Positions 32,795 to 40,459 of a stretch of DNA of 41,593 nucleotides are shown piece after piece. A program made the translations under genes and the position numbers. Below the pieces are notes generated by a model, which was given only the letters and a program-made list of their open reading frames with translations, did no database searches and was not told the DNA's origin. Positions within the stretch are counted from its first letter, which is position 1; each line of letters starts with the position of its first letter. The stretch is from Actinospica acidithermotolerans (lineage in GTDB: Bacteria > Actinomycetota > Actinomycetes > Streptomycetales > Catenulisporaceae). The stretch is from contig NZ_JAGSOH010000069.1 of NCBI RefSeq assembly GCF_018139625.1, positions 1-41,593 of the forward strand, in the 5' to 3' direction.

Positions 32795-35700
32795 TTGCGT
32801 CAGCCCACGACGGGTCCCCGAATCCGAACACTCATCGCAGCGACCTGTATCGGCCTGCTCGGCGTCGCGGCCGCGCCGGCGCAGGCCGCGCAGGCGCCGA
32901 CCGCGAACCTCGTCGGCGACCCCGCGTCGCTGGTCGACCCCTTGATCGGCACCGGTTCCGGCGGCGCGACCGTCGGCCAGGTCGACACGTATCCCGGCGC
33001 GACGGCGCCGTTCGGCATGCTGAGCTTCAGCCCCGACACACCCTCGCGGCCGGATGGCGGCGGATACGACTACGCCGACTCCTCGACGCTGGGGTTCAGC
33101 CTGACCCACATGTCGGGCCCCGGATGCGGCGCGTTCGGCGACTTCCCGATCCTGCCGACCGTCGGCTCCATCGGCGCCGACCCGATCTCGACGACCGACT
33201 CCTTCTCGCACAGCTCGGAGAGCGCGAAGCCCGGCTCGTACGACGTTACGCTCAACCCCGCCACCTCGTCGGCGATCAAGGCGAATCTGGCCGCGACCGA
33301 GCGGACCGGCATCGCGCAGCTCGACTACCCGGCGAGCACGTCCTCGAACGTGCTGTTCAAGATGGGCGACTCGGAGTCGGGCAACGTCTCGGCCGGCGTC
33401 TCCGTCCTCAACGACCACGAGGTCGCCGGCACCGAGACCGCGGGCCAGTTCTGCGGGTCGCCGACCACGTACCCGGTGTACTTCGTCGCCGACTTCGACC
33501 GCTCCTTCGCGCACTACGGCACCTGGCAGAACGCGCCCACCGGTGCGAACCTGTTCACCCAGCCGACCGGCGACCTCGCGTGGAGCTACCACGAGGTCAG
33601 CAGCGGCGGCAGCACCCCGACGATCGGCTCGACGACCACGTCGGACGGGACGAGCGCGGAGTCCTGGCAGCAGTCCGACGCCCTCGCGAACACCTGGATC
33701 CAGGCCACGCCCACCGGCATCACCCAGGGCGACGCCTACCAGGCGAGCGTCACGCTGTCCGGCAGCGGCGACGTGTTCCTGGACTTCTACAACGGCCAGC
33801 AGGACGTGGAGAGCAAGGCCGTCAACCTCACCTCGACCCCGGTCACGCTCACGATCGCCTCGACCGTGCCGACCGGCGGCATCAACACACCGCAGGTCCA
33901 GGTGCGCACCGCCGCCGAGGGCGCGGTGAACCTCGTAGCCTCGAATGTCTCACTGCGCCAGGAATCCGTCGTGACGACGGCCGGCACCTCGACGCCGGCG
34001 AGCACCTCGGGCCTGCAGTCCGGCGCGTACGTCAGCTTCGACACTACGACCCACAGCCAGGTGACGATGAAGGTCGCCATCTCGTACGTCAGCCAGGCGG
34101 ACGCGCAGGCCAACCTCGAGGCCGAGGACAGCGGCTGGAGCGAGAGCCAAGTGGCTCAGAGCACGTACAGACAGTGGAACCAGATGCTGAGCAAGATTCT
34201 GATCGGCGGCGGCACGAGCGCGCAGCAGACCGAGTTCTACACAGCGCTCTACCACGCCTTGGTCGAACCGAGCATCTTCTCGGACACCAACGGAAGCTAC
34301 ATCGGATACGACGACACCGTGCATCGCACGTCCCACGGCCAGGTCCAATACGCGAACTTCTCCGGCTGGGACATCGATAGATCAGAAGTGCAGCTCCTGG
34401 CGCTCCTGGCACCCGAGCAGACGAGTCAGATGGTCACCTCGCTGCTCAACGACCAGTCTCAGGGCGGCTGGCTTCCGAAGTGGGGCTTCGCGAACGACTA
34501 CACGCAGGTCATGAACGGCGACGCGGCCGACGAGATCATCGCCGAGGCTTACTCGTTCGGCGCACGAGACTTCGACACCAAGGCGGCGCTCGCCGCGATG
34601 GTCAAGGGCGCCTCGACCACGCCGACGAGCAGCGAACTCGGCCAGGGCTTCTACGTCGAACGGCCGCAGCTGTCCGACTACGAATCGCTCGGCTACGTCC
34701 CGAACACCCAGGAGAGCGACCTGTCCCCGGAGGACAACGGCGCCTCCGAGACCCTCGAATACGCGACCGCCGACTTCGCGATCTCGCAACTCGCCGGCGA
34801 GCTCGGCCAGACCTCGACCGCGCAGACGTACCTGGCGCGCTCGCAGAACTGGACGAACGTCTTCAACACCGACACCGGCTACATCCAGCCGCGCGACGGT
34901 TCGGGCCAGTTCCCGGAGTTCGGCCCGACCACCGACGGCATGGGCAGCTTCGGCCAGTCCGGATTCCAGGAGGGCGACGCGGCGCAGTACACGTGGATGA
35001 TCCCCCAGAACGTCGGCGGCCTGATCTCGGCGATGGGCGGTGACTCGGCGGCGATCTCGCGGCTGGACACCTTCTTCGAGCAGACCAACGCGGGCCCGAA
35101 CGCGCCGTACTATTGGGCCGGCAACGAGCCCTCGCTCGGCACGCCGTGGATCTACGACTACGCGGGAGCGCCGTACAAGACCGAGTCGACCGTGCACGAG
35201 CTGCTCGACACCGTCTACTCGGACACGCCCGGCGGCGAGCCCGGAAACGACGACCTCGGCGCGATGAGCTCGTGGTACGTCTGGTCCGCGCTCGGCATGT
35301 ACCCCGAGACCCCCGGCACCTCAGTGCTCGATCTCGGGGCGCCGATCTTCCCGAAGGCCGTGATCAGCCTCGACGGCGGCCAGCACATCGCCATGAACGC
35401 GCCCGGCGCGTCGACGAGCACGTATGTCAGCGGCCTCAAGGTCAACGGTAGGGAGTACTCGAAGGTCTGGCTCTCCGGGCTCTCGTCGTCGCTGCAGCTC
35501 GACTACGCGATGACCGGCACGGCGGACGAGACCTGGGGCGCCGCTGCGGCCGACGCGCCGCCGTCGTACTCCTCGGGGACGCTCGCTTTCCCGCCGGGAC
35601 GCAAGCCCACGATCCTCGTGCCGTCCGGCGCGAACCTGCTCGGCGACACCCCGACCGGCCAGCTGAACTGGCAGGGCCCGGTGGAGAACGGAGTCGGCTC

Positions 35701-36067
35701 GGTGCCCGGAACCATCACCCCGACGACCACGTCGTCGGGTGCCAGCGCCGTCGAATGGACCGAGACGAACGCGGATCCGAACACCTGGATCTGGGTCGAT
35801 CCCGCGTCCCAGCTGCCGGCCGGCCAGTACTACCAGGGTTCGATCACGCTCCAGGGGACGGGCGACGTCTACCTGGACTTCTGGAACGGGCAGCAGGACC
35901 TGGTCAGCGAGACGGTCGAGCTGGGCGGCACACCCCAGACGATCACCGTCCAGGGTGAGGTGCCCGGCGCCGCGGACACGCACCTGCAGGTGCGCACCGC
36001 GGGCTCCGGACCGGTCGACCTCTACGCCAGCGACGCGTCGATCCAGGCGCTGACGGCGCAGCAGTGA
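32795..36067 (+). CDS. Secreted GH92 alpha-mannosidase with inserted and C-terminal binding-like modules
   Basis: A 1090-residue exported enzyme. After a signal peptide (TLIAATCIGLLGVAAAPAQA) comes the GH92 N-terminal region with VGQVDTYPGATAPFGM. Residues ~251-396 are an inserted module that the first GH92 lacks. The catalytic domain follows, with Glu726 in GFQEGDAAQYTWMIPQ as likely acid, YYWAGNEPSLGTPW, and Asp819/Asp820 in PGNDDLGAMSSWYVW. Residues 946-1090 are a second copy of the module (GDVYLDFWNGQQDL against GDVFLDFYNGQQDV). The TTG at 32795 has GGAGG 5 nt upstream; a TTG at 32783 is in frame but overlaps no ribosome site. Control by the LacI-type operator is inferred. A terminator follows. 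Confidence 0.9.
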   Translation: MRQPTTGPRIRTLIAATCIGLLGVAAAPAQAAQAPTANLVGDPASLVDPLIGTGSGGATVGQVDTYPGATAPFGMLSFSPDTPSRPDGGGYDYADSSTLGFSLTHMSGPGCGAFGDFPILPTVGSIGADPISTTDSFSHSSESAKPGSYDVTLNPATSSAIKANLAATERTGIAQLDYPASTSSNVLFKMGDSESGNVSAGVSVLNDHEVAGTETAGQFCGSPTTYPVYFVADFDRSFAHYGTWQNAPTGANLFTQPTGDLAWSYHEVSSGGSTPTIGSTTTSDGTSAESWQQSDALANTWIQATPTGITQGDAYQASVTLSGSGDVFLDFYNGQQDVESKAVNLTSTPVTLTIASTVPTGGINTPQVQVRTAAEGAVNLVASNVSLRQESVVTTAGTSTPASTSGLQSGAYVSFDTTTHSQVTMKVAISYVSQADAQANLEAEDSGWSESQVAQSTYRQWNQMLSKILIGGGTSAQQTEFYTALYHALVEPSIFSDTNGSYIGYDDTVHRTSHGQVQYANFSGWDIDRSEVQLLALLAPEQTSQMVTSLLNDQSQGGWLPKWGFANDYTQVMNGDAADEIIAEAYSFGARDFDTKAALAAMVKGASTTPTSSELGQGFYVERPQLSDYESLGYVPNTQESDLSPEDNGASETLEYATADFAISQLAGELGQTSTAQTYLARSQNWTNVFNTDTGYIQPRDGSGQFPEFGPTTDGMGSFGQSGFQEGDAAQYTWMIPQNVGGLISAMGGDSAAISRLDTFFEQTNAGPNAPYYWAGNEPSLGTPWIYDYAGAPYKTESTVHELLDTVYSDTPGGEPGNDDLGAMSSWYVWSALGMYPETPGTSVLDLGAPIFPKAVISLDGGQHIAMNAPGASTSTYVSGLKVNGREYSKVWLSGLSSSLQLDYAMTGTADETWGAAAADAPPSYSSGTLAFPPGRKPTILVPSGANLLGDTPTGQLNWQGPVENGVGSVPGTITPTTTSSGASAVEWTETNADPNTWIWVDPASQLPAGQYYQGSITLQGTGDVYLDFWNGQQDLVSETVELGGTPQTITVQGEVPGAADTHLQVRTAGSGPVDLYASDASIQALTAQQ
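33545..33982 (+). repeat. Module copy 1, inserted inside the GH92 N-terminal region
   Basis: About 146 codons, residues 251-396, from ANLFTQPTGDL to the end of the LVASNVSLRQ strand. It interrupts the region that in the first GH92 reads straight from FDRPFTASGTW to GGWLTFDT. Confidence 0.8.
35630..36064 (+). repeat. Module copy 2, C-terminal
   Basis: 145 codons, residues 946-1090, from ANLLGDTPTGQL to the end. It shares with copy 1 NTWI, the GDVxLDFxNGQQD core, VQVRTA/LQVRTA and VNLVAS/VDLYAS. Likely a beta-sandwich of carbohydrate-binding type; family not recognised. Confidence 0.8.
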
Positions 36068-39472: not shown

Positions 39473-40459
39473 ATGCTGTTCAAGCACAAGCACTTGCTCG
39501 AGGAACTACGCAAGAAGGGCTGTCGCGCGACAGGCGAGATCCTGTCGATGACGACCATCGGCGCGGCGGCGAGCGCCTCGTCCGCGTGGGCGGCCGACGA
39601 AGATCTGTCCAAGACCTGGTTCGACTGCCGGATGGTCCTGCGCGTCGTGCCCGAGGACCGCGCGCAGTCGCCCTTCGAGGCGACCGTGATGACGCGCATC
39701 CACACCCAGAAGTCCCAAGGCGCGCACGTTCCCGTCTGGTACGACCCCTCCGATCGTTCGAAGGTCGTCGTCGACTACGAGGCGGACCTCGAGCGCGCGA
39801 TGAACTTCTACGCGGAGAGCCGCCTGCGCGAGATCCGCTCCGAACGCCTCGCCCATCTCGCCGACCAGCGCATCGGCGTCGCGTGGACGCCGATCGAGGG
39901 CGCCCTCGTGCCCATCGAGGCGATCCCGCGTCCGGGCAGCGGCCGGGTCGACGTCACGGAGTGGCCGGTCGCGGCCGTGCACGAATCCGCCGACGCCGCC
40001 GTCGCGCACGTTCGCTCCGCCGCCGGGACCTACCTGCCCCCTCGCGACGGCGGCTGGGAGGCGTGGTTCGCCGGACACGACTTCCGCGTCTTCCAGCCCT
40101 ACGGCCCGCCACCCGCGACCGAAGGCGCGACCGACGCGGCGAACATCCGCGCCGCGATCGCACTGGCCGTGATCTCCGCGCTCTCCGGCCACATGGTGCG
40201 CCCCGAGGTCTCCGTGACCGGCGGCCTGGGCCCGGAGGGCGCACTGCTCCCCGTCGCCTCGCTCAAGGACGTCGCACACGCCGCCCGCGACCTCCACTCG
40301 CAGCGCTTCATCGCGCCGACGGGAAACGCGCACGAGCTCGGCCAGGTCGGCAACCGCATCCGGGAGGGCATGGAGATCGTCTTCGCCGCAGACCTCCAGG
40401 AGGTCATGCGCCTCTCCCTCGCCAAGCACGCGGTGAAGGGCTTCGAACTAAGGAGTTGA
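39473..40459 (+). CDS. Lon-protease-like domain protein, predicted catalytically dead
   Basis: A 328-residue cytoplasmic protein. Residues ~10-110 resemble DUF3592-like modules (PFEATVMTRIHTQ, then VPVWYDPSDRSKVVVDY). A helical stretch follows. From ~205 to 325 it aligns without gaps to the Lon (S16) proteolytic domain: VISALSGHMVRPEVSVTGGL, GALLPVASLKDVAHAARDL, RFIAP and IREGMEIVFAADLQEVMRLSL. Relative to E. coli Lon, Ser679 is Asn224 and Lys722 is Val267, so both catalytic residues are gone. No ATPase domain. GGAGGGGG precedes the ATG. The end overlaps the LysR gene by 12 nt. It may be a scaffold or adaptor. Confidence 0.82.
   Translation: MLFKHKHLLEELRKKGCRATGEILSMTTIGAAASASSAWAADEDLSKTWFDCRMVLRVVPEDRAQSPFEATVMTRIHTQKSQGAHVPVWYDPSDRSKVVVDYEADLERAMNFYAESRLREIRSERLAHLADQRIGVAWTPIEGALVPIEAIPRPGSGRVDVTEWPVAAVHESADAAVAHVRSAAGTYLPPRDGGWEAWFAGHDFRVFQPYGPPPATEGATDAANIRAAIALAVISALSGHMVRPEVSVTGGLGPEGALLPVASLKDVAHAARDLHSQRFIAPTGNAHELGQVGNRIREGMEIVFAADLQEVMRLSLAKHAVKGFELRS

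Follow-up and report, generated by a model that had tools for sequence, protein, structure and literature searches.

Two Copies of a Predicted Carbohydrate-Binding-Type Module, One of Them Inside the N-Terminal Domain, in a GH92 Protein of Actinospica acidithermotolerans

Introduction

The glycoside hydrolase family 92 (GH92) protein NnGH92 carries a nested family 32 carbohydrate-binding module (CBM32) and a C-terminal CBM32 that are 36% identical, and the nested copy lies in a loop of an N-terminal CBM-like domain (PMC10167667). In other families, carbohydrate-binding modules (CBMs) are found within the catalytic domain. The GH5 endoglucanase MtGlu5 has an inserted CBM29-like jelly-roll that raises its substrate affinity, and removal of the insert leaves a nearly ninefold higher Km (PMC9063844). 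Inserted CBMs are also known in GH66 enzymes (PMC5408701) and in some xylanases (cited in PMC9063844). Here we analyze a window of 41,593 nucleotides (the whole of contig NZ_JAGSOH010000069.1, assembly GCF_018139625.1, forward strand) from Actinospica acidithermotolerans, in which a GH92 gene (32795..36067, + strand) encodes two diverged copies of one module of about 140 residues. Copy A is nested inside the N-terminal domain of the GH92 unit and copy B lies at the C terminus. The source organism is a soil bacterium.

The protein, P0001, resembles NnGH92: in both, a GH92 carries one CBM-type module in two diverged copies (47% identical here), one nested in an interior loop and one C-terminal. 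The two differ in the site of nesting: the nested CBM32 of NnGH92 belongs to an accessory CBM-like domain that precedes the catalytic domain, whereas copy A breaks into the GH92 unit proper, within its N-terminal domain. They also differ in the kind of module, since those of P0001 match no F5/8-type model, and in the residues for α-1,2 specificity, which are present in NnGH92 and absent by alignment from P0001. Like MtGlu5, P0001 has a CBM-like domain, a jelly-roll by prediction in P0001, with little identity to known CBMs in the middle of its catalytic unit; MtGlu5, however, is endo-acting, belongs to another family, and has a single copy, and the binding and the effect on activity that are predicted here were measured there. 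In the GH66 cycloisomaltooligosaccharide glucanotransferases, a CBM is likewise inserted in, and protrudes from, the catalytic domain, but it is a CBM35 in a loop of a triose-phosphate isomerase barrel, with sugar-binding sites seen in crystals (PMC5408701). A CBM-like domain within a catalytic domain (GH5, GH66, and xylanases) and a GH92 with nested and C-terminal module copies (NnGH92) were therefore already known. As far as our searches reach, the module family without a name, its placement within the N-terminal domain of a GH92, and the occurrence of the same module elsewhere in another GH92 are new. A literature search whose coverage left out most subscription journals turned up no description of a folded domain set into the GH92 unit.

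Results

The GH92 Gene Encodes One Module Twice

The gene encodes 1090 amino acids from a TTG codon at 32795, which on inspection is preceded, 5 bases upstream, by GGAGG. P0001 is the automatic open reading frame (ORF) from TTG 32783 (1094 amino acids), and its numbering, used throughout, is that of the original prediction plus four. Both Pfam families of GH92 score over their cut-offs (PF07971, 501 bits against 24.6; PF17678, 193.9 bits against 34.5), as does NCBIfam TIGR01180 (518.7 bits against 249.55); the score for NCBIfam NF035929 "lectin" was below the curated cut-off (667.9 against 800 bits). In hmmscan, the N-terminal β domain (PF17678, E = 4.9e-57; residues 50–254, 32930..33544, + strand) matches profile positions 1–204 of 236 and then stops at residue 254, and the catalytic domain (PF07971, E = 4.8e-150; residues 441–899, 34103..35479, +) begins only at 441. 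Copy A (residues 256–394, 33548..33964, +), delimited by sequence comparison and by a β sandwich in the full-length model, fills much of this interval. It is followed by an 18-residue linker (33965..34018, +), placed from alignments, that leads back to the N-terminal domain. Copy B (residues 951–1094, 35633..36064, +), delimited by sequence comparison and by a predicted model of its own, closes the protein.

The original prediction, made from the letters of the window, was that a module of about 145 residues occurs twice in this protein, once inside the N-terminal domain and once at the C terminus. BLASTP bears this out: copies A and B are identical at 63 of 134 positions (47%, E = 1e-33), and their local alignment score is 285, whereas none of 1000 shuffles scored above 79. 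Searching the whole source genome with a profile (E ≤ 0.01) returned two module copies, both in this gene, whose frame has no stop. The same A and B layout recurs in eight other species, which rules out an assembly artifact.

In a tree of the module, the A copies and the B copies form separate clades, each with 100/100 support. The divergence is old, as had been proposed, and predates the spread of the enzyme over several actinomycete families. Mean identities are 71.7% among A copies, 71.7% among B copies, and 47.7% between A and B, against 76.5% for the N-terminal domain and 75.9% for the catalytic domain, so that the conservation of the module is close to that of the catalytic domain. Between P0001 and its closest relative, L008, the ratio of nonsynonymous to synonymous substitution rates is 0.31 in copy A and 0.26 in copy B, compared with 0.32 in the catalytic domain and 0.24 in the N-terminal domain; the values for A and B lie near that of the catalytic domain, which indicates that both copies are kept under comparable selection. 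Ten alignment columns, gaps counted, are fixed differently in A and B (e.g., Y269-H270 in A and G965-P966 in B). Identical residues across all 18 copies number 31 and include the aromatic residues W267/963, W295/992, W305/1002, Y319/1017, and F335/1033.

Both Copies Are Predicted to Be Jelly-Roll β Sandwiches

Modeled alone from 18 aligned sequences, copy B is built entirely of strands (predicted local distance difference test score, pLDDT, 88.1; predicted template modeling score, pTM, 0.82). Its best structural match is Xyn10B (2w5f residues 32–180, which we take to be a CBM22; VIA Z score 13.9, 2.2 Å over 129 residues). Further matches are the endo-arabinanase EndoMA1 (8ic1 residues 333–480, Z = 13.8), the CBM22 tandem of Xyn10C (4xup, 12.9), and CBM4-2 (4bj0, 12.8), and CBM15, CBM29, and CBM16 stand lower in the list. 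In a full-length model, copy A (model residues 211–352) gave Z scores of 14.7 to 8ic1 and 14.6 to CBM4-2 4bj0 (2.5 Å over 139 residues), and copy B gave 14.3 to 2w5f. The stretch of N-terminal domain flanking copy A matched GH92 structures in the same model (e.g., 6f90, Z = 22.0, 5.0 Å over 298 residues, range 8–523). This model derives from 10 sequences and has a mean pLDDT of 53; the catalytic domain lies mostly at 20–45 and the first ~75 residues are low, and no reading is taken from these parts.

By prediction, then, both copies share a jelly-roll β-sandwich fold nearest to CBM4/CBM22-type modules. Had the two segments failed to share a fold, the idea of a duplicated module would have been in doubt; both model as CBM-type β sandwiches. 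The likeness to the CBM4, CBM22, CBM16, CBM15, and CBM29 group lies in the predicted fold (Z about 11 to 14.6), whereas identity in the structural matches is about 8–16% and there is no profile match. The original prediction had spoken of a binding module. A duplicated, independently folding domain of carbohydrate-binding type is upheld by the predicted fold; sugar binding would be a further step beyond it.

Searches by sequence gave the module no name. For copy A of L008 and copy B of L015, Pfam returned only matches below cut-off, to LtfC (0.031) and DUF3727 (0.21), and no CBM model. No PDB sequence matched an 18-row module profile at E ≤ 10, and models for F5/8 type C (CBM32) domains gave no match to the modules at the same threshold. 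The family appears to be unnamed in Pfam, NCBIfam, and the sequences of the PDB; the CBM models of CAZy lay outside this comparison.

Copy A Occupies a Length-Variable Hairpin

The insertion point was surveyed in 79 aligned GH92 proteins of the phylum. They are a nonrandom sample, made up of the 2 window proteins, 3 loci of the same genome, 8 orthologues, 29 best-scoring loci from a search of the order, 20 hand-picked rows (five chosen for length), and 17 loci that the search of the phylum supplied; a further 15 loci were omitted as repeats of genes already included. The first GH92 of the window (P0002, 25222..28737, +) lacks the module and, as had been claimed, reads straight through the insertion point: the proteins are 55% identical on either side of the insert, where P0002 has 7 residues and P0001 has 164. 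Across the survey, the hairpin between "...YGTW" and "SGAY..." spans 160–207 residues in the 9 module-bearing enzymes and 3–93 residues in the other 70. An equivalent insert in most GH92 enzymes would have made the case an ordinary one, and 70 of the 79 have no module there. Judged from these alignments, the insertion site is a hairpin of variable length in which, among the GH92s examined, a folded domain is found in one clade only, and the large spread in length is as expected of an exposed loop. Copy A is tethered by 7 residues on its N-terminal side and by a linker of 14 to about 61 residues on its C-terminal side among the 9 proteins (loop lengths of 160–207 minus 7 and 139). The hairpin corresponds to about residues 219–230 of BT3990, by our own count on a phmmer alignment. 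An argument from Trp198 of BT3130 as to which end of the β sandwich bears the hairpin hinges on whether residues 239–243 turn back and was dropped. By eye, the long module-free loops appear to be of low complexity; L038, L041, L048, and L068 have apparently disordered loops of 59–93 residues at this hairpin.

When the loop is left out of the alignment, the module-bearing enzymes group as one clade in a tree of all 79 proteins (FastTree local support 99); the program flags long branches meeting elsewhere in the tree. The sisters of this clade are L032 and L046, from two genomes of the source organism's genus (G019 and G015), with 16-residue loops, and beyond them lie P0002 and three relatives with loops of 3–7 residues. 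A single module clade next to short-loop sisters indicates that the insert is, most simply on this tree, derived and gained once.

The Module Was Found in GH92 Proteins at Three Positions

Two peptide patterns, run against 84,980 genomes, gave 45 matching stretches, 8 of which encode relatives (L008–L015); because the patterns are strict, this is a lower bound. All 8 are GH92 proteins with A in the middle and B at the end (L012 is incomplete at its N terminus, at a contig end), and, with P0001, all 9 proteins that bear A also carry B. Their hosts are Actinospica durhamensis, Streptomyces shenzhenensis, Actinacidiphila rubida, A. oryziradicis, Streptantibioticus silvisoli, Streptacidiphilus jeojiense, Actinoplanes subtropicus, and Kutzneria sp. 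Profile searches of the order found the module in 3 of 293 genomes, and the same three were recovered among 391 with a 19-row profile; judging by identical coordinates, two of them are probably those in which L008 and L013 lie. GH92 itself is present in 124 of 147 genomes of the order. In a draw from the phylum, the module was present in 1 of 396 genomes, the source genome itself, and in a draw from the class (E ≤ 0.001), in 2 of 394, the source genome and G743. These order, phylum, and class searches fully scored 10 to 13 candidates per genome, so remote relatives of the module may be missed. Of the 14 genomes that matched in the class search, 12 had only weak matches (E 0.003 to 0.1), and these were not accepted as relatives; one that was inspected, L124, looks by eye like a methyltransferase and not like a CBM. 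The order of G743 has the module in 1 of 5 genomes, G743 itself. It was absent from 35 and 22 genomes of the orders of G872 and G834, a weak negative because no known positive is among them. No match to copy B was found in a plasmid collection.

The original prediction had suggested searching for the module alone. Strong matches came from 10 proteins, all GH92 (P0001, L008–L015, and L137), with the module at three positions, and no protein of another kind matched at E ≤ 0.001 in the module searches made. L137 (L137:456–878, contig 114 of G743), from the same class and another order, has a single copy near the N terminus of a GH92, followed by an F5/8-type (CBM32-like) domain that does match PF00754 and then by the GH92 domains. 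This setting resembles that of the nested CBM32 of NnGH92. In the five relatives aligned across the site (L080, L081, L086, L087, and L088), the chain reaches the F5/8-type domain without a module. L137 has the "PSPW" motif of the Trp88 type found in α-1,2 enzymes; its contig (3302 bases) ends before the His-Glu region, and the assignment to the α-1,2 type is therefore provisional. In the unrooted module tree, the single L137 copy attaches by a long branch between the A and B clades. Copying of B to give A, copying of A to give B, and separate arrival of the two would each fit this tree.

Catalytic Residues and Specificity

Alignment places the general acid at E730 (34970..34972, +), the equivalent of Glu533 of BT3990 (role from PMC5930347 and PMC10167667), and the general base at D824 in the NDD motif (35252..35254, +; role of the last Asp from PMC12858847). 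The first position is Glu in 77 of the 79 rows and the second is Asp in all 79. In BT3990, α-1,2 specificity is given by Trp88, His584, and Glu585 (PMC10167667, PMC12858847). P0001 lacks this signature in a phmmer alignment, by our own count from the Glu533 anchor: Trp88 is replaced by G114, and the loop of His584-Glu585 falls in a gap. The fungal α-1,3 enzyme AnGH92A is without the α-1,2 motifs and loop, as is AnGH92B (PMC12858847). The lack of the signature residues suggests that P0001 acts on a linkage other than α-1,2, possibly α-1,3. At D532 (34376–34378), the WDxYR motif reads WDIDR; the residue at the position of D532 is Tyr in 68 of the 79 rows, His in 8, Phe in 2, and Asp only in P0001. 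This is a real change or a sequencing error, and activity could be lowered.

Discussion

Proposed Role of the Modules

We think it probable that the two copies are jelly-roll CBMs of an unnamed family, which hold a secreted, Ca-dependent GH92 exo-α-mannosidase on a mannose-rich surface. The N terminus looks like a signal peptide by eye (32795..32887, +, probably cut after ...APAQA), which points to secretion. The catalytic domain, predicted from its family to be a Ca-dependent exo-α-mannosidase, would remove mannose from chain ends. Copy A, on linkers that are short on the N side and longer on the C side, and copy B, at the tail, would grip the surface at two points and so contribute avidity, and copy B may additionally stabilize the catalytic core. 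In evolutionary terms, one actinobacterial GH92 lineage would have gained A at its hairpin and B at its C terminus before spreading among several actinomycete families. Mannan-rich fungal walls are a plausible substrate. In Streptomyces lavendulae preying on yeast, GH92 genes rise 16-fold on average, although the single mannosidase purified in that study was without activity on mannan (PMC13170338). Should the module bind α-mannan, it would found a new family of CBMs, and the hairpin would offer a natural site for grafting domains into GH92 enzymes, which are useful on yeast mannan and on N-glycans. Because some close relatives carry the module and others lack it, natural pairs exist in which the contribution of a CBM to an exo-mannosidase is directly testable.

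Several observations weigh against this proposal. Sugar binding is drawn only from the predicted fold and the association with GH92, and ephrin-receptor ligand-binding, cyclase, and toxin domains also occur in the structural match lists. Neither copy had a Pfam match at E ≤ 10 (though the filters of HMMER discard most hits with E values over about 0.1) or a match in NCBIfam. Comparison of the module with a local CBM_4_9 profile of 30 rows gave a probability of 0.2%, a weak negative from a narrow set (effective number of sequences about 2); a control comparison with GH92 N-terminal domains likewise gave no signal. Binding by the CBM32 domains of NnGH92 could not be demonstrated, and their deletion chiefly hurt stability (PMC10167667). 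The authors of the MtGlu5 study attribute part of the loss upon CBM removal to a disturbed loop (PMC9063844). Finally, D532 departs from a conserved motif, so the activity of the enzyme is not certain. A bolder form of the proposal is possible, though we regard it as doubtful: the module would represent a new CBM family, restricted to GH92 enzymes and specific for α-mannan ends, a cassette that entered at three places (the hairpin of the catalytic unit, the C terminus, and, in GH92s of another type, the accessory region at the N terminus). Copies A and B would be specialized for different mannan branches, so that the enzyme reads two points of one branched glycan.

The modules might instead be structural, bracing or shielding the catalytic core or protecting the secreted protein from proteases without binding sugar. 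NnGH92 keeps this explanation alive, because variants without the C-terminal CBM32 and the end domain were inactive even on mannobiose, and the melting temperature of the deletion variants fell by about 10 degrees (PMC10167667). The long, apparently low-complexity loops that many other GH92s have at the hairpin also imply that what fills it need not serve binding. We nevertheless judge a purely structural role unlikely, since the fold class is that of glycan-binding domains, one module at three GH92 positions is easier to explain if it works independently, and in some relatives the linker on the C side of copy A is as long as about 61 residues, which is ill suited to bracing. Linker length bears as well on the earlier suggestion that copy A projects over the active-site cleft, forms extra subsites, and alters which branched glycans are cut. 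With 14 to about 61 residues beside A, a fixed pose over the cleft is not to be expected in all 9 proteins, and a hairpin that ranges from 3 to 93 residues in other GH92s is unlike an expected subsite loop. This arrangement therefore seems improbable to us, even though the GH92 active site is made of loops from both domains (PMC5930347), an inserted CBM prolongs the substrate groove in MtGlu5 and in the GH66 enzyme CITase (PMC9063844, PMC5408701), and the outer subsite of P0001 may be open, given G114 at the position of Trp88 and the gap at the His584-Glu585 loop. Slightly less likely still is a target other than the substrate, such as the cell's own envelope, another protein, or a second subunit. 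Domains of the same fold do serve as protein-binding and toxin-component domains, as the structural match lists show, but in the searches made the strong matches to the module fell without exception in GH92 proteins.

Neighboring Genes

A gene for a TetR-type regulator (PF00440; 31981–32658, − strand) adjoins the GH92 gene divergently and may control it. Around five of the eight orthologue loci (L010, L011, L013, L014, and L015), Pfam searches of 10 flanking frames, selected by length and third-position GC content (GC3) without a gene caller, gave nothing clearly common. The neighbors seen were GH59, enolase, luciferase-like, exchanger, and transporter proteins and one TetR-type regulator (L011), whose C-terminal family differs from that of the regulator in the window. 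Elsewhere in the window, the protein at 39473–40459 (+) matches the C-terminal proteolytic domain of Lon protease (PF05362, residues 132–317) and nothing else in Pfam. P0002 ends in a β propeller of the YncE/YVTN type (PF21783, TIGR02276), to our knowledge an uncommon partner for GH92. The source genome holds five GH92 genes in all, on contigs C144, C361, C388 (two), and C389.

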